Of a stretch of DNA of 42,534 nucleotides, positions 18,399 to 37,203 are shown piece after piece. Below the pieces are notes generated by a model. The model was not told the DNA's origin, ran no database searches, and saw only the letters and a program-made list of their open reading frames with translations. The position numbers and the translations under genes were made by a program. Every line of letters begins with the position of its first letter. Position 1 is the stretch's first letter. The stretch is from Candidatus Eremiobacterota bacterium (GTDB taxonomy: Bacteria > Vulcanimicrobiota > CADAWZ01 > Ess09-12), in assembly GCA_031082125.1 (NCBI GenBank), contig JAVHLM010000009.1, positions 83,111 through 125,644 of the forward strand. Direction: 5' to 3'.

Positions 18399-21300
18399 AT
18401 GGCAAAAGAGCTATCAGACAAACCGGCACAGACGGAAGGCCAGCTCTTTGATCTGGTCTACCGTGACGATCTTACGGGCCTCCTCAACAGGAGATTCTTC
18501 AGGGAGCAGATTGATAAAGACAGCCAGGCTCTCAAGGAAAAGCCCGGTGATTATTCATTTCTCATGTTCGACATAGACCACTTCAAGAGCATCAACGACG
18601 GCTACAGCCATCAGGAGGGCGACGTGGTGCTCAAGGAGGTGGCAGAGCTCTTCAGGGACTCCATAGGCGAGAAAGGGCTTGCCATAAGGTATGCCGGCGA
18701 CGAGTTCGTGGCCCTTCTCCCGGGGCTCCCGAAACCGGAAGCGAAAGACCTCGCCCTGGAATTGAAAAACATTGTCTCTTCACATTCCATTCATCTCCCC
18801 TCGGTGAACGAATCCCTGAGAGTCACCCTCAGCATCGGTGTGGCCCACTGCCCCGATGACACGGCACACGCACAGGAGCTTGTACAGCTTGCCGACGAAG
18901 CGGCCTACATAAGCAAGAAGAAGGGCAGGAACTCTGTCTCGACAATAGACGAGAAGAGAACGGAGGATATCGAGGTCCGGTTCCTTCACCGCTACTTTCC
19001 CTGCAAGAAATTCGTGGGCCGCGAGGAACTGGTGCAGCGCCTCAAGAGGCTCGCCCTCCCCACATCGTCGGAAAGCAAGCCCATCGTGATGATAGAAGGC
19101 CCCCACGGCATAGGAAAATCAAGGCTGCTCTCCGAAATTGCCCAGGCTTTCGACCCCGTGAGGAATCTCCACCTCCGCTGCCATTGCCAGCACATCACGG
19201 CGGCCCAGCCCTTCTGGGAGGTCACCGACACCCTCAACAGGAAGCTTACCGAAGCCCAGGAGCTTGCGTCTACAGTGGCAAACCGCCTCAGCAGGCAGAA
19301 GCTCCGAGAGATAGTTCCCCTTATGCCGGTTTTTGCCCCTTACTATGTGCAGCCGGCGGAAGGACCGGAAATATCGGCACAGCAGCGCAAGGAGATTCTG
19401 CTGGAGGCCATTGAAGAGGTCTTTCTCACTATCAGCGAGAATAAACCCCTCGCCATAAGCATTGATGATTTCCAGTGGTCCAACCTGGGGACCCAGATGC
19501 TCATCGAGCGCCTCAAATCCAACCCGAAAGCCGACAGGATCCCCATCTTCATCTCCCTCAACAGTGATGAGCTTCTTGCGTCAAAAGACACTGATCTCCT
19601 TGAATACCTGAGGCGCCTCGAGGAGAAATCGGTCATGACGCGCTACAGGCTTGAAATGCTTGAAAAAGATGAAATCGAGAAGCTTGTGGCATCCATCATA
19701 CCAGGCCTTGAAGTGAACAAGGATGTGGTAAAAATAATAAGGGAGCGTTCAAAAGGCCTTCCGCTCCTCGTGGAAGACATCATCAAGCTCCTGATATACA
19801 GGAATATCATCCATACCCGCGAGGGTGTCCTTATCGTCGAGCCCTTTGAGGCAGATTCGATCCCCGTCAATATCGAGGAAGCCTTCAACCCAGGGATACA
19901 GCAGCTTGACGAGGAGGTGAAGGGGCTCCTCTGCAGGGCCTCCGTGATAGGGGAGCGCTTCAATATCGATCTTCTCAAGCAGGTGGACGGCAGGAGCGAG
20001 GCCTTTGTGCAGGACATCCTGGAGAAAGCCCAGAAGGCGGCCCTTATCACCAACGATCCCATCAATGAGCCGGACACTTTTATTTTTTCCAGCAATAAGA
20101 CCCATTCCAGCGTCTATGAAAGCATCACAGACGATGAGAAAAAGGTATACCACAAGCAGCTCGCCGAGATAGAGTGGCAGATCCACAAGGAAGAGATCGA
20201 GACAGTCCTCTCGAAAATCGCCTATCACTTCAAGCAGTCCGGCGACGAGGCGAAAGCCCAGCAGTATTTCAACCAGCTCCTTGGGAACTACGAGAACTTC
20301 CTGTCGCCGAAAGTCATCGAGCTCTATGTGGGAAGAGCCCCCGTGAAGAAGGAATGGGAGAGCGAGAAGGAGCTCACCGAGGAGGAAGAAGCCCTCGCTT
20401 TCCAGTTTCTCAAGCTCATCCAGATCACCCTCGGCAACCTGCAGAACTTCCCGATCGAGAGCGAGATTGTGAAAGGCTCCTTTGAGAGCACATACTGGGA
20501 GCTCAAAAAGCTTTTCGAAAAGATTGAAATCGTCACCTTTTCCGACGGCGACGGCGAGCTGCTCATCAACAGCAAGCGCCCTTCATCATCGGACAAAGAC
20601 AGGACGAGCGAGGAAAAGTTCCTGCAGGCAATCAGCAAGGCCGGCCTCAAGGGGATCACCATCAAAAAGGAGATCACCAAGGAGCAGTTCCTCAGGTTTC
20701 TGAGAATGGTCATCATTGAAAAACATGACGACATTGAGCAGAAGGGGGGCTGGACAGAAGTCCTTACCCGTGAGGGCATCACTTCTGTCATTACCAACGA
20801 GCGCATATTCATCTCCGTTGCCGAGCGCGATCTCTTCGACCCGAAGCGGCTCAAAGAAGAGGTTGTCGTTATCAAGAAGATAGAGACGGAAGACAATGCA
20901 CCGCCCTCTCCCCTCACCGAAGGAGAACGGCGGGAACAGGCTTCGACCATTGCAGGAAATATTTACGAGCAGCTTCAGCAAATCAAGGAAGGGGTCCTCA
21001 AGGATGAGAGCCTTGGTGAGGATGTTGAGAAAATAAGGGATCTTCTGGAAAGGATTTTCGAAAAGCACGTAGGCATAGAAAAGCTCATAGAGAGCATCAT
21101 GCCCCGTCTTGGGCAGGAGGAGGCCCCGGGCCTGTCAGCGCCTGGGAAAGTCCCTTACTCCCAGACCTATGAGCCGCATTCGGAGACCATGGGAGAGCTT
21201 TCAATACTTGTCAGGAAGCTTGACATTCTCACCTTTGCCAAGTTCCGCGTGGAGCCTGAATTCCTGGTCAAAGACCTCGAGTCAGGCGATGATGAGATCT

Positions 21301-22130
21301 CGTCCTCATCGGCCGTCGCGCTGGGCAAGAAGGGACAGGAATCCATCCCCGCCATTATAAGCTTCTTGAAGGCCACTGAGAGCCCCCTGGGAAGAAAGCG
21401 GGCCTTCCACCTTCTCAAGAGACTTGCACCCAGGGCCGAACAGCTCCTCATAGACGATCTCATGGGCGCCACCTCAGCCGAGGAAAAGAAGCATATAATA
21501 GAAGTGCTCCACGACTCGGCAGGCATCGATATTCTCGGGGCGCTCAGGTATTACCTGCGGAGCCCCCAGAATGAAGTGCGCCAGGCGGTGATAAACCTTC
21601 TCTGCTCCCGCCCCACGGACAAGACAGAGGACCTGCTCCTGGAAATACTCAATGACCCTGTCACCGAAGAGAACCTTCCCATTGTGCGCGATGTGATAGA
21701 AGCCATGGGAAGGATGAAGATGACAAGGGCCGTAGAGCCTCTCTCAAAGATGCTCAGGAAGAGGGATATTCTGCTCTATGACGTGTCCCATGAGGTCCAG
21801 GAAGCGGCCTGCCTGGCACTTGGAAAGATTGGAAGCCCCGAGTCACTTCCTCATCTGATAAGAGCTGTCAAGAAAAGCCCCTTCTATTTCCTCATGCGCC
21901 TTAAGGCTGCAAGGGTGAGAGCCGCCGCAGCGTTCGCCCTCAGCGCCTTTCCTTCCCAGGAAGTGAAAGCCCTCCTCAGGGAAACGGCAAAGGACCCCCT
22001 CCCTGACGTGCGCTCGGCGGCTAGCCTGGCCCTTCATAACATAGAGATGGAAGGGGCTCTGCCGAAGCTCGACAAGCCCATCCTTGCAGAGGAGCCACCT
22101 GATAAGCCTGACAAGGGAAAAAGAGGCTGA
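18399..22130 (+). CDS. GGDEF diguanylate cyclase - STAND-type ATPase - HEAT repeat protein
   Basis: The product has 1243 residues and no membrane segment. Residues about 16-185 are a GGDEF domain: DDLTGLLNRRFF, MFDIDHFKSINDGYSH and the signature RYAGDEF at 97-103. AGDEF is a variant known from active cyclases. No RxxD inhibitory site is seen before it. Residues about 205-520 are an AAA/STAND ATPase with FVGREELVQRL, Walker A GPHGIGKSR (234-242) and Walker B LAISIDDFQWS (Asp356/357), as in MalT/AfsR-type switches. A central helical region with FSDGDGELLINSKRP follows. Residues about 950-1230 are HEAT-like repeats (VREAAC-type units such as EVQEAACLALGKIGSPESLP). This suggests a soluble nucleotide-switch that makes cyclic di-GMP on a protein signal. 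No ribosome site is seen before the ATG. It ends two bases from convergent glgB. Confidence 0.88.
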   Translation: MAKELSDKPAQTEGQLFDLVYRDDLTGLLNRRFFREQIDKDSQALKEKPGDYSFLMFDIDHFKSINDGYSHQEGDVVLKEVAELFRDSIGEKGLAIRYAGDEFVALLPGLPKPEAKDLALELKNIVSSHSIHLPSVNESLRVTLSIGVAHCPDDTAHAQELVQLADEAAYISKKKGRNSVSTIDEKRTEDIEVRFLHRYFPCKKFVGREELVQRLKRLALPTSSESKPIVMIEGPHGIGKSRLLSEIAQAFDPVRNLHLRCHCQHITAAQPFWEVTDTLNRKLTEAQELASTVANRLSRQKLREIVPLMPVFAPYYVQPAEGPEISAQQRKEILLEAIEEVFLTISENKPLAISIDDFQWSNLGTQMLIERLKSNPKADRIPIFISLNSDELLASKDTDLLEYLRRLEEKSVMTRYRLEMLEKDEIEKLVASIIPGLEVNKDVVKIIRERSKGLPLLVEDIIKLLIYRNIIHTREGVLIVEPFEADSIPVNIEEAFNPGIQQLDEEVKGLLCRASVIGERFNIDLLKQVDGRSEAFVQDILEKAQKAALITNDPINEPDTFIFSSNKTHSSVYESITDDEKKVYHKQLAEIEWQIHKEEIETVLSKIAYHFKQSGDEAKAQQYFNQLLGNYENFLSPKVIELYVGRAPVKKEWESEKELTEEEEALAFQFLKLIQITLGNLQNFPIESEIVKGSFESTYWELKKLFEKIEIVTFSDGDGELLINSKRPSSSDKDRTSEEKFLQAISKAGLKGITIKKEITKEQFLRFLRMVIIEKHDDIEQKGGWTEVLTREGITSVITNERIFISVAERDLFDPKRLKEEVVVIKKIETEDNAPPSPLTEGERREQASTIAGNIYEQLQQIKEGVLKDESLGEDVEKIRDLLERIFEKHVGIEKLIESIMPRLGQEEAPGLSAPGKVPYSQTYEPHSETMGELSILVRKLDILTFAKFRVEPEFLVKDLESGDDEISSSSAVALGKKGQESIPAIISFLKATESPLGRKRAFHLLKRLAPRAEQLLIDDLMGATSAEEKKHIIEVLHDSAGIDILGALRYYLRSPQNEVRQAVINLLCSRPTDKTEDLLLEILNDPVTEENLPIVRDVIEAMGRMKMTRAVEPLSKMLRKRDILLYDVSHEVQEAACLALGKIGSPESLPHLIRAVKKSPFYFLMRLKAARVRAAAAFALSAFPSQEVKALLRETAKDPLPDVRSAASLALHNIEMEGALPKLDKPILAEEPPDKPDKGKRG

Positions 22131-29041: not shown

Positions 29042-29350
29042 GGCTTCCGCCCCTTTCTTGTAGCTTTCCCGGGTAAATCCCGGCACCGGGAGAAAGGTGC
29101 CGGAGGGTACCAGTATTTCAAGAATCGTATCGATAATTCCTGTTATTCCCTATGGCAGCAGGCAGGCGGCCGGTCACAGAGGACCCGGCCCGCGGGAGAG
29201 GCGCCGTAGAGGGTATAATGCCCAAATGTTAACAATTCTTTTACATCACCTGCAGCGTCTCATGCTTTACTTGATGGCGTACTCATGTTACCATAGGGTT
29301 GAAGGGGTCTTACCCCCCGTATCCATGATTTTATGCCGGGAGCAAAAAGC
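29042..29350. other. Divergent intergenic region between pgi and the heptad-repeat gene
   Basis: About 310 bases without a gene. It holds the 29080-29103 hairpin, an isolated TATAAT on the plus strand (29214-29219) without a good -35, and a five-base GGGGT/ACCCC stem (29304-29316) just before the plus-strand gene. No ORF or RNA gene could be supported. Promoters for both giant genes and pgi should be here. Confidence 0.5.
29080..29103 (-). promoter_or_regulatory. Hairpin in the probable pgi leader
   Basis: CCGGCACC and GGTGCCGG form a perfect eight-base stem around an eight-base loop, 39-62 bases upstream of the pgi ATG. On the minus strand the 3' arm could also pair with a nearby CCCGGG (29067-29072), so two exclusive structures are possible, as in attenuators. 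Function inferred only. Confidence 0.45.
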
Positions 29351-31360
29351 ATGAACCCTGTCAGCGGGAGCTACCAAGATTACAGCGGTCTCCCCGTTAC
29401 CCCCCAGCCTCCCCAGAAAGCCCCTCCCGATGGCGCCCAGGGGCCTTCAGGCTCACTTCTTGATGAGACTGACGTGTACCAGGCTTCAGCTCTGCTGAAA
29501 GAGAAGGGCAAGGAAGAGGCAAAAAGAGGCCAGGACCTTGCCGCCGCGGGAGAAAAGAAGGTTGACGCCGGCATCGAAAATATCGGCAAGGCCGCCGAGC
29601 TCAGTGAAACCGGGGAGCAGGAGAAGGCAAAAGCAGAGAAGCTCCTTTCCAAGGCAGGCAAAAAAGAAGCCCACGGAACAAAGCTCGTCCAGGAAGGCCT
29701 GGCCCAGAAAGAGAAAGGAGCCGCCAAGGAATCCCGGGGCATTGCCCATATCCGCGAGGGAATCCTCATGGATGAGGAAGGCGACAAGGCAAAGCGCAAG
29801 GGAATAAGAGGCGTCGAGTGCGGCCTGAGGAGAGAGGACAAGGCGGAAGGGCTCCAGAAAGAGGGCGTTACCTTTATCACCCAGGGAATCTTTGAAGAGG
29901 AACAGGCCGAAGCGGTAAAACAGCAGAGCATTGGCACGATAGAAGACTCCATAGGCAAGGGTAAAGAGGCGGAGCTCAAGGAGAAGGAGGCCCTCAGTGG
30001 CCTCCAGGACGGAGCTGACAAGGAATCGAACGGGATATCGCTCAAGGACGAGGGCCTCTCCCTTTACAATGAGGGCCTGGAAAAGACCACGCAGGGCGAA
30101 GCCCTTCTCAGCCACGCAAAAGCCGATTTTCAGAAAGCCCAGGACCTTGAGGTTGACGCAAGAGACAAGGCCGTGCAAGCCTCATATCTCAAGGAGGGCG
30201 CCGCAGGCAAAGAAAAGAAGAGCGTCGAGGTGATGAACGAGGCGCAGAACCTCTGGAATGAGTCCGAGGTAGTAGCGGCAAAGGCCAGGGAAGCCCTTAA
30301 GGTGGCTGCAAAAGACCGTGCCATGAGGGAAAAGCTTTACCAGGAAGGCCAGTACTGGTACCAGAAGGGCTACTGGGACTACATGCAAAGCTCATATTTC
30401 TTCTGCTGCCCCTTCTTCTATTACGGGGGATGGGGAATGAACCAGCAGGCCATGTGTGAGATGCAGCATGGCATCCAGCTCCTGAACCAGGCCAACGCCT
30501 ATGGATCCCATGGAGCCCAGATGGAAGCCCAGGCCCAGGAGCTCATGCGCAGGGCTGAGGATATGAAAAGGCAGGCCCTCGACAAGGAAAAAAAGGCACT
30601 TTCCCTCAAGGCTGAAGCGAAACAAGACAGGCTTGAGGCACAGAAGCTCACCTCAGAGGCCCAGGAAGAGATGGATTCGTCCTACGCTTACAAGCTCCAG
30701 GCCAGGCATGAGCATGAAGAGGGCCAGGCCCTCACCGGCCAGGGATCGCAGCTCAAAGAAGAAGGCGAAGTCCTGATGGAAGAAGGAATCGATCTGGCCC
30801 AGGAAGGCAGAACCATACAGGAAAGCAATATTGCCGGTTTCCAGGAAGGGCTTGACGCGGAAAAAACCGCCGCGGAATCGGGGCAGGAAGCGCGGGGAGA
30901 TATCGGGGAAGCCTTCGCTCAAGAAACAAAGGCCCATGCCGCAGAGCGGCGGGGAGTAAGGAAATTCAGAAAGGGCCTCGCCCTCGAGCAGGAAGCAAGA
31001 ATCAAGGAGCAAGAGGGTCTCTCATCGATAAAGCTCGGCTTCAAAACATCAAAAAAAGCCCGGGAGCTTGAGCAGAAGGGAATAGGCGAGATACAGCGGG
31101 GAATACTCACGGAAAATCGGGGGAGGGTAAAAGAGAAAGAGGGACTGGCCCGCCTTGAGGAAGCCCGGAAGCTCAAAGTTTCCGGTGACAGCCTCGCGGC
31201 ACAGGGCGCCGCCCATACCTCCGAGGGACTGGAACTTGAACTGCAGGCCTATAAGGAGATTACCGAGGGCCTCCAGGCCCAGAAGGCCGGCAAGATCATC
31301 CAGGACAAGGGAATGGAGTACCTCCGCATGGCCGATGAAGCCGAAGAGAGCTCTCGGTAG
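29351..31360 (+). CDS. Giant small-residue heptad-repeat protein (predicted helical hairpin)
   Basis: The product has 669 residues and matches no family I know. Residues 1-45 are a Pro/Gly-rich head. Residues 46-346 are 43 uninterrupted heptads, such as GLAQKEK, GIAHIRE, GILMDEE and AELKEKE; the first position is Gly, Ala or Ser in all but one. Residues 347-373 are a turn rich in Tyr, Phe, Trp, Cys and Gly (SSYFFCCPFFYYGGWGM). Residues 374-667 are 42 more heptads, such as GEVLMEE, GIDLAQE, AQKLTSE and GILTENR, with one exception (Asn). Composition is Glu/Lys/Gln/Ala/Gly-rich. No signal peptide is seen. Arms of 301 and 294 residues around a turn suggest a long antiparallel helical rod. The start at 29351 is preferred because GGGAG lies eight bases upstream; an ATG at 29333 is in frame. 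The TPR/FlhA-like gene follows 17 bases later. Confidence 0.85.
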   Translation: MNPVSGSYQDYSGLPVTPQPPQKAPPDGAQGPSGSLLDETDVYQASALLKEKGKEEAKRGQDLAAAGEKKVDAGIENIGKAAELSETGEQEKAKAEKLLSKAGKKEAHGTKLVQEGLAQKEKGAAKESRGIAHIREGILMDEEGDKAKRKGIRGVECGLRREDKAEGLQKEGVTFITQGIFEEEQAEAVKQQSIGTIEDSIGKGKEAELKEKEALSGLQDGADKESNGISLKDEGLSLYNEGLEKTTQGEALLSHAKADFQKAQDLEVDARDKAVQASYLKEGAAGKEKKSVEVMNEAQNLWNESEVVAAKAREALKVAAKDRAMREKLYQEGQYWYQKGYWDYMQSSYFFCCPFFYYGGWGMNQQAMCEMQHGIQLLNQANAYGSHGAQMEAQAQELMRRAEDMKRQALDKEKKALSLKAEAKQDRLEAQKLTSEAQEEMDSSYAYKLQARHEHEEGQALTGQGSQLKEEGEVLMEEGIDLAQEGRTIQESNIAGFQEGLDAEKTAAESGQEARGDIGEAFAQETKAHAAERRGVRKFRKGLALEQEARIKEQEGLSSIKLGFKTSKKARELEQKGIGEIQRGILTENRGRVKEKEGLARLEEARKLKVSGDSLAAQGAAHTSEGLELELQAYKEITEGLQAQKAGKIIQDKGMEYLRMADEAEESSR

Positions 31361-31377: not shown

Positions 31378-34300
31378 ATGAAGCCCGCCCCTCCGGACAA
31401 CACTCACATGAATCCTCCATCCCACATTGAAGAGCGAAGACTACGGCAGATCATCCAGGAGAATCCCCGTGACAGCTCGGCTTTTTACAGGCTCGCCCTG
31501 CTCTTGGAAGACCACCACTCCTATGAAGATGCCCTTGCCACCCTGAAGAAGGCCCTTGCCATTGATCCCGCTTTTAACAAGGCCTTCACCCGCTCGGTGA
31601 TGCTCCTCCACACCACAAGCGGAAAACGGCGGGGGAAGTGGATTTTCACCACACCCTCGGGTGCCGAGCACCCGGGAAAAATGCCGGTTCTACCCGACGA
31701 ATGCCGCTTCAGGATGTATGAAAAAGGGAGCGAGGTGCTCCTTGTTCCTTTCATGCAGCGCTTTGGAAAGGCTGCGCAGTTCCTTGACGAGGGAAGAGAG
31801 GAGGAATGGAAAGCCCGCCATCTTCCTGAATCCTTCAGGGAAAAAGCGATCCTCACCTTCCGGAAGGCCCCCCCCCCTGGAATCTCTCTCGATGCCTCTT
31901 CCCTCACCGTGGAGCTGGGCACCGATTTCAGGGATCTCTTCAGGGATATCTCGCTGAGAGCCGTCCATCTCACGGAGCGCTTCAGGAAAGAGAAGGGCAT
32001 TGCCCTTGCCCCCCCTGCATTCAGAGTCACCAGGTCCCTTCCCGCCGACCGCTTCAGGGTGATTTCGGGGCCTTACCTTCTCGGCCAGGGGGGCATAAAA
32101 AAAGACCATCTTCTTGCCGCCAGGGAGCATCAATCGGCGCCGCCGTCACTTGTACCCGGTGTAGACACCTCCATCGATGCCCTGGGCCTCAAGGGAAGGT
32201 GGATCGGCAGGGAGGGGAAGAAGCAGGCTGAGAGCGAGGGTTTCCACGTATTTGAGGCCATTCCCCTTATACTGGAGACCGCATACCGCCTCATGGAGGA
32301 CCATCTTGATCTGCTGTGGAGCGAGAGCCACACGGGGCGCTTCATGGAGTTCCTCAGCAAAGAGAGGCCCCGGACTCCCTGGAAAACCCTTGAAACCACC
32401 CTTTCCCTGGCAGCCCTCACGGGCCTCATAAGGCATGCCCTGCGGGCAGGCGCCGCGCCGGCAGAGCTCCCTTACTGCCTGGAGCACCTCATCGAATCGG
32501 CTCATGACGATGAATATTCCATGGCATGCCTGCTCTGGAATCGCACTGTCGATCTCGAGGGAATACGCATGCTCGCCCAGAAAGGGGCTTTCCAGGCACT
32601 TTCAATCGCTCCGCAGCTTGAAGAAAACCTTCTCATATTCCTGGGCACTCATGGTGACGAATCAGTCGGTGATAAGCTCTTTCCCTTCTCCACGGTGCTT
32701 GATCAGCTCAGAGACCTGTCCTCAAAAATCCTGCAGCTCGGAAAAAGACCGATGCTGATCTGCGATTCATTCCTGCGGCCTTTCATTTCGGAGTGCATGA
32801 GGATCTTCCCAGAGCTCCTTATTCTCTCAAAAGAGGAAGCCTCAATAATTCCCCCGCAGCAGATTTTTTACGAAATCAACGAGCACCCCCTGGCCCTCAG
32901 GGCCGCAGCGCACCAGCATGTCGAGTCGGCCCTCTCATTCTACCCGGCACCTTCCGGGAATAACCCTTTTCAGGACAGGGACAGGATTTCCTTTGCCTCC
33001 TTCTTCAAGGAAGAGGAGAGGCTCCTGGTGGATATCGAAGCGGCAATGATAGAGCGGTGTGAGGCCATGAGCACCGTCCTCATATATTACCAGGAGATGG
33101 GATACCGCTACGAGGGCCTCCTGTCTGCCAGCGTCACCGGCAGCGAAGGAGGAGTCCACGAGCCCGCGGAGTTCGTCCAGTCCTCACCTTTCAGCGTGGA
33201 GCTCGGCCGGGCCTATGCCCCCCTCCTGGCAAACAAGGAGGAGCTGAAAAGGCATGTTGAAGGCATGCGCTCCCTTTTCTCTGAAAAGTACTCGGTGATA
33301 CTTCCTGAAATCCATTTCCACGTGGACCCTGCGATGGAAGAGAGCACTATCTCCCTGCTGTTCAGGGGAAAACCCCTTTTTTACTCCACCATGCAGGACA
33401 ATCCCGCCCTTACCCACATCCTCGGCGGTGAAAAGATCGTGGAAGACCCAATAGAGGCTTTCATGGCAAGCCTCGCCCTGGTGATGGAGAACCACCTCGC
33501 GGATTTTATTGATTATGAGATCACCGCTGATTTCCTGGAGAGCCTGAAAGGAGCCTGTGAAGGCGGTGCCGAAGCGCCTGTTGAGAGGGTAGCCCCGGTG
33601 CTCAGATCGCTTTTCGAGGAGAAAGTGCCCTGCAGGAAAAAGGACTTCATCGCGGCAGAAATCGAAAGCCTCTCCAGGAAGGGCGCCTCCTGCGGTGAAA
33701 TCGTGGAGAGCATCAGAGAAGGCCTGAAGGAAGAGCTGCTTGAGCCCTTTCTCTCAGAGGAAAAGAGGCTTCCCGCTGTTCCCCTTGGCGATGACATGGA
33801 GATTATCCTGAAATCGCCTCTTTTCGAGTATCTGTTTGATGGCCAGGACGCCTCCTGCATGAAAGAAAGAGACTACATCGCCGAGCTCATAGCGAAAGAA
33901 TACGAAGCGACGCCGGGCAGCAGAAGAAAGCTGCCCATCATGTGCACAAAATCTCTCAGGAAGCCTCTTTTCCATCTTCTGAAGCCCTGGCTTCCCGGTG
34001 TGGTCATTCTGTCACGAGATGAGGCTGCCGGGAGCGAGATTCAGCCTGCAGGCGTCATAGAAGCCTCAGAGGGTTTCAGGAAATTCATCTTTGACGAGAT
34101 CCTCAAGCAGGGCATTCTCTCTGACCACTCCCACCTTGAAAAGGAGCTGGCGCGGAAGCTCACGGAGCTTCTGGAGCACCAGGAAAAGGAGCACGGGGAG
34201 GAGGAGAAGGCAGAGAGAGAGAGAGACTTCATCACCATCACCATGAACCCGGTCTTTTTTGAGAGCCTTGGAGGCGAAAGGGATAAGACGGGGTTCTCCT

Positions 34301-37203
34301 CCACCATTCTCTTCCTCAGGGAATGGCTGGGGAAGGTGACGGGAAGAAAGGTCCCGCAGGTCCTCGTGGCACTTGATGACGAGGCCCTTCCTGAGCAGGC
34401 TGAGCTCTCGCCTGGCACCGGCAGGACCCTCCGCATCACCATACCCCGGGGATGCGCTCTCAGCTTCTCCAGGGGGATACAGGGCTTTGCAGGCTCATCG
34501 GTGCCGCCTGCACCGCCGTGCCTGCAGGGCTGCTGGCATGAGGAAAAAATCCCCCGGGAACAGAATGACCGCATTCAGGTCAGCGCCCTCGAATATATCC
34601 TTCTCGCCCTCTTCACCCTTCTAAAGAACAGGCTCTGCCAGGCACCCCTCGCGGCAGGGCAGAAGAAAAATCTGCAGCGCAGGGCTGCGGAGTGCGGCCT
34701 GATGGAAGACGATAGTGAAGCGGTCCTTCATATGGCAGCCACGGCCGCCGATATCCATCCCGCCCAGGTCTGCGGCGCCCTTTCGCCCGGCATGGCACTT
34801 GTCCTCGGCGACAGGGGTCTCAAGGAGAGAATTCTCGAGCTCCTGTCACCGGTACGGGAGGCCTCTCTCAATGCTGAAGGCGGGATCCTGCACGCGGTCG
34901 TCGCAGAAGACGATCTCGCCGCCTTTCTGCGCGGTTACATGCGCGAGGCCTCACCGCAGGAGATTGAGCGCTTCCGCCCCCCCTCGCTTAAAAAAGTGGC
35001 CGGGGCCTTCGCTGCTTCCCTGCTGCGTCTCCTGCGGACAGGACGCCGCGCGGTGGCCGTTGTTCCCTTCGAGCTTGAGCCGATGCTGCAGGGCCTCCTC
35101 GCCTCCATTGTTCCCCAGGCTATAGTGCTCCCCAGGGAGTTCATATCAGCTAAGACCTTGATTGAGCCCTTTGAGACAGTCCCTTACAAGATCCTTTTCG
35201 CTCCCCTGGAAGACGAGGAGGAGACCGGTCCAGAAACTTTCACCATCGCTCTTGACGAGTTCTACCTTTTCCTGGCCCTTCTTGCAGATGAGAAGGGTGA
35301 CACGGAAAAATCAGGGCATTTCTGCGAGGCTGTCACAGGCTTCTTCCCCTTGCACCCCCTTGCCCTCTGGCGGAATGCCTTTTCCCTCCAGAGGAGGGGA
35401 AACCGCGACGAGGCAGCAAAAACAAGGGAGATGGCTCTCCGCGCGCTTCCCGAGCTGCCCTTCATCGATCCGGCTTATTATATGCCTGAAAGCGCCAGGT
35501 GGGAGAGCGAGAAGGCCTTCCTGGAGGCGTCAATGAGGGAAGCCCCCCTGCCTGTCCATCAATACCGCCACCTCTATTGCACTTTCATGGAGGGCGCGGC
35601 CGGGGACAGCCTCAGTATTCCCCATGAGCTCTTCGACAGTCTTCCCTTTGATGACGAGCTCCTCGTCCTCGCGGGGAACATTGCGGGCGACAGGGAAGAC
35701 TACCGCGATGCCCTTGCATGGTACAGGAAAGCCCTTGCATTGAACGGGAGCAACAGGGAGGCACTGAGGGGATGCGCAGGAGCCCTCGCAGAGGACAGTG
35801 AATTTGAAAAATCCTGGAAAATCTACCGAACACTTGCAGGGGAGAGCCCCTTCGATGACAGGATGCTGTATGACAGCGCAATGGTCCACATGGACAGGGA
35901 GGATTACCACTCGGCGCTTGCCTGTGCAGAGACCATTCTCGCCATGGACAGTGAAAATGCCGATGCCTTCTTTTTGAGAGGCCGCTGCTGGGGAAGCCTG
36001 GGGAAGACATCCAGGGAAATAGCGGACCTTACAAGCGCCCTGGTCCTTGAGCCTGACAACATTCTCTTTAACCGCACCATGGGGGAGCTCCTCTGGCAGT
36101 CAGGCCTTTACCAGGAAGCGGAGCCATACCTGCTCAGCGCCTTCAGGGTATATCGGGAGAGCCCCTTTGCGGCGATCCACAGGATAAAGATACTTCTCAT
36201 GCTGGGCGACATCTCCTCTGCCATGAAACTGACAGACGAAGCCGCGGAACAGTCGGGCTCGCCGCCTTCAGCACTGCTCCACCTGCAGGGGGAAATCTCG
36301 GCATTGCTGGGCTTCCGGGAAAAAGCCGGTGAATGCTTCAAAAAAGCCCACGGCATCAACAGGACAAACCCTGTCTATGCGATGAGTGTCGCCGAGATGG
36401 CCTGCCTCGACGGAAGACTTGACGAGGCCGCGCAGATCTACCGGGAAGCCCTCCAGAGAAATCCTTACTGGGTCAAGGCCTCACATGCGCTGGCCCTCAT
36501 AGCCTCAAGAAAAGGTGACGTTGAAGGCGCCAGGAAGCAGCTCAGGAGCGCCATGAGCTATTCCCCGGGCACCCCTGAGCTTTATGCCTCATACTTCTCT
36601 CTCCCCCCCGCCGAAGGAGAGCATGGCATGTGGGCAGAGCTCCAGAGGGAGCTCATCTTTCTTGACCCCCTCAACTATGGCGCCTATTACTGCCTCTCCC
36701 TTCTCTACGCCCTGCAGGGGGATTTTGACAGGGCCCTCGGCGAGGCGGAGCGCGCCTTTCTCATCGCACCGGACCATCATGCCATCGTGGAACAGCTCTG
36801 CCGCATGCACATGGTGAAAAGAGACGGCAAGCGCGCCCTGGTCATCCTGAGGGTCGCCCTCAAGAAGATCACCCGCTCCGAGAGGCTCTGTTTTATCGAG
36901 GGTATGTGCTGGAAATCCATAGGAAGCCTTGAGCGGGCCCGTGAGAGCTTTCTTAGCGCTTCGCGCCATGGTCCCCTCACGCCTTTTGCTGCCGTATCGA
37001 GGGGATATGCGGCCCTCATCGGCGGAAAAGCCATTGAGGCAGCCGCTGAGGCAGAAGGGGCGCTCCTGGGGGACAGCCGCTTCTCTCCCGCAATGGTGCT
37101 TATGGCGGAAATCAAGCATTCCTCCGGGGAAGGCGACGAGGCGGAATCTCTGCTGGCGAAGGCACTTAAAAGTGATCCCGTGAGATCCTGGGGACTTTTC
37201 TGA
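31378..37203 (+). CDS. Giant TPR protein with three tandem FlhA cytoplasmic-domain-like modules
   Basis: The product has 1941 residues and no membrane segment. Residues about 15-75 are TPR (AFYRLALLLEDHHSYEDALA). Module A (about 165-505) follows the FlhA/FHIPEP C-terminal domain in order: LTVELGTDFRDLF, FRVTRSLPADRFRVISG, KKDHLLA, PGVDTSIDALGLKGRWIGRE, KQAESEGFHVFEA and, at 457 onward, RPMLICDSFLRPFISE then FPELLILSKEEA. Module B (about 600-895) has FSVELGRAYAPLLA and LPIMCTKSLRKPLFHLL then LPGVVILSRDEA. Module C (about 950-1275) has DFITITMNPVFFESL and VAVVPFELEPMLQGLL then VPQAIVLPREF. Residues 1290-1941 are roughly a dozen more TPRs (YRDALAWYRKALALNGSN, LDEAAQIYREALQRNP). In flagella and injectisomes this domain forms a nine-membered ring that receives chaperone-cargo complexes. 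No other export gene is in the window. No strong ribosome site precedes the ATG, so coupling to the upstream gene is likely. Confidence 0.85.
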   Translation: MKPAPPDNTHMNPPSHIEERRLRQIIQENPRDSSAFYRLALLLEDHHSYEDALATLKKALAIDPAFNKAFTRSVMLLHTTSGKRRGKWIFTTPSGAEHPGKMPVLPDECRFRMYEKGSEVLLVPFMQRFGKAAQFLDEGREEEWKARHLPESFREKAILTFRKAPPPGISLDASSLTVELGTDFRDLFRDISLRAVHLTERFRKEKGIALAPPAFRVTRSLPADRFRVISGPYLLGQGGIKKDHLLAAREHQSAPPSLVPGVDTSIDALGLKGRWIGREGKKQAESEGFHVFEAIPLILETAYRLMEDHLDLLWSESHTGRFMEFLSKERPRTPWKTLETTLSLAALTGLIRHALRAGAAPAELPYCLEHLIESAHDDEYSMACLLWNRTVDLEGIRMLAQKGAFQALSIAPQLEENLLIFLGTHGDESVGDKLFPFSTVLDQLRDLSSKILQLGKRPMLICDSFLRPFISECMRIFPELLILSKEEASIIPPQQIFYEINEHPLALRAAAHQHVESALSFYPAPSGNNPFQDRDRISFASFFKEEERLLVDIEAAMIERCEAMSTVLIYYQEMGYRYEGLLSASVTGSEGGVHEPAEFVQSSPFSVELGRAYAPLLANKEELKRHVEGMRSLFSEKYSVILPEIHFHVDPAMEESTISLLFRGKPLFYSTMQDNPALTHILGGEKIVEDPIEAFMASLALVMENHLADFIDYEITADFLESLKGACEGGAEAPVERVAPVLRSLFEEKVPCRKKDFIAAEIESLSRKGASCGEIVESIREGLKEELLEPFLSEEKRLPAVPLGDDMEIILKSPLFEYLFDGQDASCMKERDYIAELIAKEYEATPGSRRKLPIMCTKSLRKPLFHLLKPWLPGVVILSRDEAAGSEIQPAGVIEASEGFRKFIFDEILKQGILSDHSHLEKELARKLTELLEHQEKEHGEEEKAERERDFITITMNPVFFESLGGERDKTGFSSTILFLREWLGKVTGRKVPQVLVALDDEALPEQAELSPGTGRTLRITIPRGCALSFSRGIQGFAGSSVPPAPPCLQGCWHEEKIPREQNDRIQVSALEYILLALFTLLKNRLCQAPLAAGQKKNLQRRAAECGLMEDDSEAVLHMAATAADIHPAQVCGALSPGMALVLGDRGLKERILELLSPVREASLNAEGGILHAVVAEDDLAAFLRGYMREASPQEIERFRPPSLKKVAGAFAASLLRLLRTGRRAVAVVPFELEPMLQGLLASIVPQAIVLPREFISAKTLIEPFETVPYKILFAPLEDEEETGPETFTIALDEFYLFLALLADEKGDTEKSGHFCEAVTGFFPLHPLALWRNAFSLQRRGNRDEAAKTREMALRALPELPFIDPAYYMPESARWESEKAFLEASMREAPLPVHQYRHLYCTFMEGAAGDSLSIPHELFDSLPFDDELLVLAGNIAGDREDYRDALAWYRKALALNGSNREALRGCAGALAEDSEFEKSWKIYRTLAGESPFDDRMLYDSAMVHMDREDYHSALACAETILAMDSENADAFFLRGRCWGSLGKTSREIADLTSALVLEPDNILFNRTMGELLWQSGLYQEAEPYLLSAFRVYRESPFAAIHRIKILLMLGDISSAMKLTDEAAEQSGSPPSALLHLQGEISALLGFREKAGECFKKAHGINRTNPVYAMSVAEMACLDGRLDEAAQIYREALQRNPYWVKASHALALIASRKGDVEGARKQLRSAMSYSPGTPELYASYFSLPPAEGEHGMWAELQRELIFLDPLNYGAYYCLSLLYALQGDFDRALGEAERAFLIAPDHHAIVEQLCRMHMVKRDGKRALVILRVALKKITRSERLCFIEGMCWKSIGSLERARESFLSASRHGPLTPFAAVSRGYAALIGGKAIEAAAEAEGALLGDSRFSPAMVLMAEIKHSSGEGDEAESLLAKALKSDPVRSWGLF

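Follow-up and report, generated by a model that had tools for sequence, protein, structure and literature searches.

The gene at positions 29351–31360 of the window, meaning the whole analyzed stretch of 42,534 nucleotides from a Candidatus Eremiobacterota genome, encodes a representative of what is, judging by sequence comparisons, a new and previously unnamed protein family, a variant of the long helical hairpin structures. An antiparallel helical hairpin with an elbow at mid-length is well supported for this protein, and the best overall explanation, with a probability of about 0.5, is a soluble hairpin rod of fixed length acting as a strut, perhaps in a complex of two paralogues, A (the window gene) and B.

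Gene and Protein Organization

The ATG at 29351 is favored as the probable start over an alternative upstream ATG at 29333 (ORF 29333–31360, a product of 675 aa) because of the sequence GGGAG at 29338–29342, 8 bases upstream of the former. In the following, heptads are counted on the 669-aa form, and the AF2 features, Pro360, the elbow and the mirror axis are numbered on the 675-aa form. The parts of the gene and its downstream neighbor are as follows:

29351–31360, +, A-type hairpin gene, 669 aa from ATG 29351
29351–29473, +, N-terminal Pro/Ser/Gly-rich tail, predicted disordered (AF2 pLDDT 35–46 for residues 1–46 of 675)
29474–30403, +, arm 1, helix 48–357 (675 numbering), a small residue at every seventh position
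29939–29965, +, mid-arm joint (elbow) on the arm 1 side, residues 203–211; pLDDT minimum and homologue register violations at heptads 18–26 from the tip
30389–30469, +, tip, a 27-residue Tyr/Phe/Trp/Cys turn with the near-invariant Pro360; mirror axis of the protein
30410–31354, +, arm 2, helices 360–510 and 518–674, from the heptad register and AF2
30857–30883, +, mid-arm joint (elbow) on the arm 2 side, residues 509–517; pLDDT minimum, helix break and register violations at heptads 19–28
31378–37203, +, next gene, 1941-aa TPR protein with two FlhA-cytoplasmic-type (FHIPEP) stretches, 17 bp downstream

The elbow of arm 2 mirrors that of arm 1 about residue 359.5. The protein contains 14% E, 13% A, 10.5% K, 10% G and 8% Q. 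No transmembrane-like segment was found in it, the maximum 19-residue hydropathy being below 1.6, and a transmembrane tip, suggested by the aromatic residues, was ruled out on the same value; the hydropathy of the N-terminal tail revealed no signal-peptide-like segment. Codon adaptation relative to the ribosomal genes did not mark the hairpin gene as highly expressed, in a genome where the ribosomal genes themselves scored no higher than others.

Heptad Register of the Window Protein

Starting from residue 46, 43 heptads begin with Gly, Ala or Ser (a single Arg excepted), followed by the 27-residue turn rich in aromatic residues and Cys (SSYFFCCPFFYYGGWGMNQQAMCEMQH) and, from residue 374, by 42 further heptads of the same kind (a single Asn excepted), which end two residues before the stop. 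This recount from the ORF reproduced the initial annotation exactly. Small residues occupied 97.7% of the register positions in each arm against 38 ± 3.6% in shuffled sequences (best register taken for each of 20,000 shuffles; maximum 58–60%; z of 16.4 and 16.8 for the two arms), while the anticipated period of seven was evident from Gly/Ala/Ser autocorrelation values of 0.40–0.47 at lags 7, 14, 21 and 28 and values around zero or negative at other lags. The best 35-heptad score reached 1.00 in the A protein versus a maximum of 0.57 among 160 other ORFs longer than 260 aa from the same loci. The underlying DNA had been described as non-repetitive, and indeed no tandem repetition was detected in it beyond weak 23–28 bp arrays. 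The further claim that nothing interrupts the register was correct for the small residues of the window protein itself, but not in the wider sense: the AF2 confidence dropped at residues 203–211 and 509–517, and the small-residue rule was lost there in the homologues.

Homologues and Paralogues

Full-length homologues of 612–692 aa (and one of 711 aa with an over-extended start) were present in 19 of 58 related genomes and occur in the Eremiobacterota lineage including UBP9, which has been placed within Ca. Eremiobacterota (PMC6664022). A profile built from 24 members matched 24 of the 149 genomes of the phylum, in 16 of its 70 genera, with the three weakest matches being short (E ~1e-6 to 1e-8) and possibly due to chance. 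Scanning of genome contigs with a single-protein query yielded nothing, and three near relatives were all that a three-sequence alignment recovered; the homologues are only about 20–30% identical to each other. None of the 24 members matched any Pfam family at E 0.01, no NCBIfam family matched the members, neither of the two members tested matched PHROGs or PADLOC, the PDB contained no natural relative (the best sequence matches being short designed coiled coils), and searches of phages, plasmids and viral contigs produced no relatives. The earlier impression that no described family resembles this protein therefore holds in every library searched (Pfam, NCBIfam, PHROG, PADLOC and PDB).

The homologues form two reciprocally monophyletic clades, A and B, with a support of 100/99; the duplication behind them is ancient. 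Most of the large-genome members possess one A and one B, which in several genomes (L034, L035, L044, L045, L048) are located near each other in convergent orientation, and in the genome of the window (G000) the B copy, of 626 aa, is on contig 6. Two genes from the latter copy, a 706-aa protein (L031:11064–13184, −) has coiled-coil regions and an end which by eye resembles a lytic transglycosylase domain. B was not detected in three order-level relatives with small genomes that carry A (G001–G003). The A proteins of these three (L036, L037 and L038) have a longer tip, richer in Met, Phe and Pro and with a hydropathy up to 1.5, whose role may differ in these relatives. In G032 a stretch of undetermined bases divides the A gene (L046:2344–4262), which suggests a gap in the assembly and not a truly split gene, and the public record JAAZKF010000147.1 (L053), encoding an 87% identical A protein, is titled Burkholderiales bacterium and appears to be mislabelled. 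The hairpin proteins are under purifying selection, with dN/dS of 0.11–0.27 overall and lower values at the small positions in each of the seven pairs compared in this respect.

Arm Length, Paired Deletions and Mirror Symmetry

When two registers and a split were fitted to each sequence, the phase jump between the arms was −1 residue (mod 7) in 26 of 26 homologues, a set which leaves out five deviating sequences, L039, L050 and the three A proteins from the small genomes. The two arms comprised 43–45 and 43–45 heptads in A and 41–42 and 41 in B, a single B member scoring short owing to the loss of the small-residue rule in its elbow zone, so that the arm length is constant to about one heptad. 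Register, arm symmetry and arm length were kept in both A and B, and homologues breaking register and arm symmetry, which the initial annotation had named as the finding that would speak against it, were not the outcome of this comparison. The alignment of B with A contained two 21-residue gaps, one in each arm, equivalent to three fewer heptads per arm in B. The gap positions chosen by MAFFT (136–156 and 514–534, not mirrored) were set aside, gap placement being ambiguous in a heptad protein. By ungapped arm-by-arm scoring, the missing 21 residues fitted best at 34–36 heptads from the tip in each arm independently, with a broad optimum in arm 1, where the score hardly varied between heptads 22 and 36. 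A closed antiparallel hairpin would demand just such an equal loss at an equal level of the two arms.

The rod consists of two zones with different cores, mirrored between the arms. In the tip third the facing position is Ala/Ser, with Leu at the fourth heptad position, and the base part is Gly-faced; the Ala/Ser facing extends over some 12 heptads next to the tip, with a sharp switch to Gly at heptad 14 in both arms of both A and B. When the arms were read outward, the Gly profiles of A showed a mirror correlation of 0.82 at zero shift, which no circular shift equaled, against −0.18 for the parallel arrangement; the value for B was 0.71 (one of 39 shifts being as high) and that for the window protein alone 0.49 (permutation p 0.0005). 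The hydrophobicity of heptad position 5 in the Gly zone had a three-heptad autocorrelation of 0.84 and 0.89 in the two arms and a mirror correlation of 0.89 at shift 0 (parallel, −0.30), and the 21-residue unit of the base part reads G-hyd-x-x-hyd-x-x-G-L-x-x-E-x-x-[GA]-x-x-x-[QEK]-x-x. Mirror-paired positions carried anticorrelated charges, and of 57 offsets tried the minimum lay 2 residues from the axis; as the sequences are related, a t value of −5.2 exaggerates the strength of this result. The register violations in homologues clustered at heptads 18–28 from the tip and were likewise mirrored (r 0.69).

Predicted Structure

AF2 modeling on the 24-member alignment returned the three helices listed above for A with a mean pLDDT of 82 and a turn at residues 358–359, on the mirror axis of 359.5; the prediction was helical and not disordered, save for the N-terminal 46 residues. 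The B model had helices 39–327 and 330–625 with a pLDDT of 81 and mirrored confidence dips. Residues 204–516 of the A model superposed on the chemoreceptor cytoplasmic hairpin 2ch7 from Thermotoga (307 residues, 4.7 Å, Z 13.8), which was the best superposition of this model, and residues 296–431 on the colicin E3 hairpin at 2.0 Å, so that the A model shows a closed hairpin in its tip half. The pTM of the A model was only 0.34 and its full-length structural matches had a very large rmsd; the B model superposed poorly on known hairpins, with rmsd of 27–50 Å for most chemoreceptor chains. The base half is probably closed as well, a deduction based on the mirror symmetry and the compensating deletions and not on AF2 with its pTM of 0.34. 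The mirrored AF2 confidence dips and the homologue register violations at the same level point to a joint at mid-length. The AF2 helix-turn-helix, the mirrored profiles, the paired deletions and the conserved arm length together support the helical hairpin anticipated by the initial annotation, and a structure of this kind is considered highly probable.

Genomic Neighborhood

The hairpin gene and the FHIPEP-TPR gene, 17 bp apart, may be co-transcribed in this genome. This neighbor invites an explanation by flagellar-type III export, in which the hairpin protein would form an extracellular filament, adhesin or tip structure, with its disordered N-terminus as the export signal and the FHIPEP-TPR protein as the targeting factor. 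The disorder of the N-terminal 40–46 residues, the adjacent gene for an FlhA-cytoplasmic-type domain, the presence of flagellar FlhA and FlhB in the genome and the multiplication of FHIPEP domains in the phylum are all in line with it, but no FHIPEP gene adjoined those homologues of other genomes that were inspected, and lone FHIPEP domains are so common in the phylum (15 matches in this genome, 19 and 17 in two others) that one such neighbor is weak evidence; moreover, no match to known secreted-protein families was obtained. Export is thus regarded as unlikely. No conserved context was found at about 20 loci, whose neighbors are unrelated (TPR, GGDEF-EAL, radical SAM, FAA hydrolase, alcohol dehydrogenase), and a functional link with the FHIPEP-TPR neighbor was not assumed, since the neighborhood is not conserved in other genomes; consequently, no partner or process is indicated by the genomic neighbors.

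Two observations concern the surroundings in their own right. FHIPEP proteins lacking the membrane part are strongly multiplied in the phylum, at many loci (for example, in G000, G018 and G038), and the window also contains, at 18399–22130 (+), a gene for a protein of 1243 aa in which an AAA_16/STAND-type ATPase comes after a GGDEF domain, an unusual domain order.

Comparison with Known Systems

The highly hydrophilic character of the protein (GRAVY −0.87) would suit a disordered desiccation protectant of the LEA/hydrophilin kind, helical only when dry or bound. The mirror symmetry about a conserved turn, the equal-arm deletions and the length kept to about one heptad across proteins with 20–30% identity are all unexpected for a disordered protein, however, and the periods are 7 and 21 instead of 11, with neither the 11-residue LEA repeat nor a Pfam LEA domain being found in the hairpin proteins, which makes such a protectant improbable.

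The same low probability is given to a headless SMC/Rad50-like arm tethering DNA or other complexes tip-to-tip through Cys or aromatic residues. With the arms of SMC, MukB and Rad50 the hairpin proteins share long antiparallel arms, an elbow (at mid-length) and an apex, most of the A proteins have a Cys-Pro tip, and the best Foldseek matches were coiled coils of MukB, condensin, Wadjet, cohesin elbow and Rad50. Yet any long helical hairpin typically gives matches of this kind, and the Foldseek lists against the PDB and viral models, dominated by generic coiled coils, were not taken as kinship. In contrast to the SMC-type proteins, the arms are joined by a short turn without a conserved hinge domain, the ABC-type ATPase heads are absent (no Pfam or NCBIfam match), the protein consisting of arm, tip and 40-residue tail, and the facing position is Gly/Ala/Ser rather than Leu-type residues. 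The Rad50 zinc hook CxxC at the apex was ruled out: the A tips have CPF, NPF or LPF, the B tips have no such motif and mostly no Cys, and Cys is not conserved.

A diverged chemoreceptor signaling hairpin has very little probability despite the 2ch7 superposition and the shared features of a very long antiparallel helical hairpin with a conserved tip, a flexible mid-bundle joint and lengths differing by paired heptads (PMC6628036), given that none of the 24 members matched the receptor signaling domain (PF00015, E 0.01) or any other model, that transmembrane and HAMP segments are missing, that the tip, of two paralogue types, is unlike the receptor tip, and that there is a single strict small-residue position and 43–44 paired heptads versus the 12–32 reported for receptors (PMC6628036).

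The initial designation as an Alacoil or glycine-zipper type is apt as a description of the sequence pattern: a small residue at each seventh position of both antiparallel helices, as in Alacoil, was found in the hairpin protein by sequence together with the mirror and AF2 pairing. The helices of an Alacoil lie about 7.5–8.5 Å apart. Small core residues and close helix packing are common to Alacoil and to the Ala-rich coiled coils of honeybee silk, whose paralogues co-assemble (PMC12284834), and the rule at the facing position resembles both. The hairpin proteins differ from these in a base zone dominated by Gly, in a single chain that provides both helices as its arms and in a super-period of 21 residues, and they have no sequence relation to them. 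The best PDB match of the family profile, the designed antiparallel coiled coil sc-apCC-4 (PDB 8a3k, E 0.0045), was to the Ala/Leu zone near the tip and represents a compositional likeness over about 60 residues to a designed protein, not a relative.

Proposed Mechanism and Function

In the strut model, the chain would first form an alpha-helix some 310 residues long, turn at the aromatic/Cys tip around Pro360 and return antiparallel, making a hairpin of about 43–44 paired heptads and about 45 nm in length (the rise per paired heptad is 10.5 Å; PMC6628036). The small residues at the facing position would allow unusually close packing of the helices across a Gly/Ala/Ser seam, and the hydrophobic flank positions of the Gly zone may be contact sites for a second hairpin, the B partner being the simplest candidate. 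The protein would then act as a soluble cytoplasmic strut or spacer setting a distance, with the tip and the disordered tail joining other components. What speaks most for a spacing role is the constraint on absolute length. The strut role in partnership of A with B is given a little less than an even chance, and the A proteins of G001–G003, where no B was detected, indicate that an obligatory A–B complex is not general.

As a tentative and rather doubtful extension, A and B might constitute a cytoplasmic scaffold peculiar to the lineage, either a new element of the cytoskeleton or a new spacer, in which Gly-faced hairpins interlock through the 21-residue mirror-symmetric repeat and selection keeps the absolute length to about one heptad in 44. 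Absolute length control is rarely visible from protein sequence, and the family offers a natural system for close-packed Gly/Ala helix pairs, molecular rulers and the co-evolution of antiparallel arms. The hairpin proteins suggest that this uncultured lineage of bacteria has a structure not yet described.
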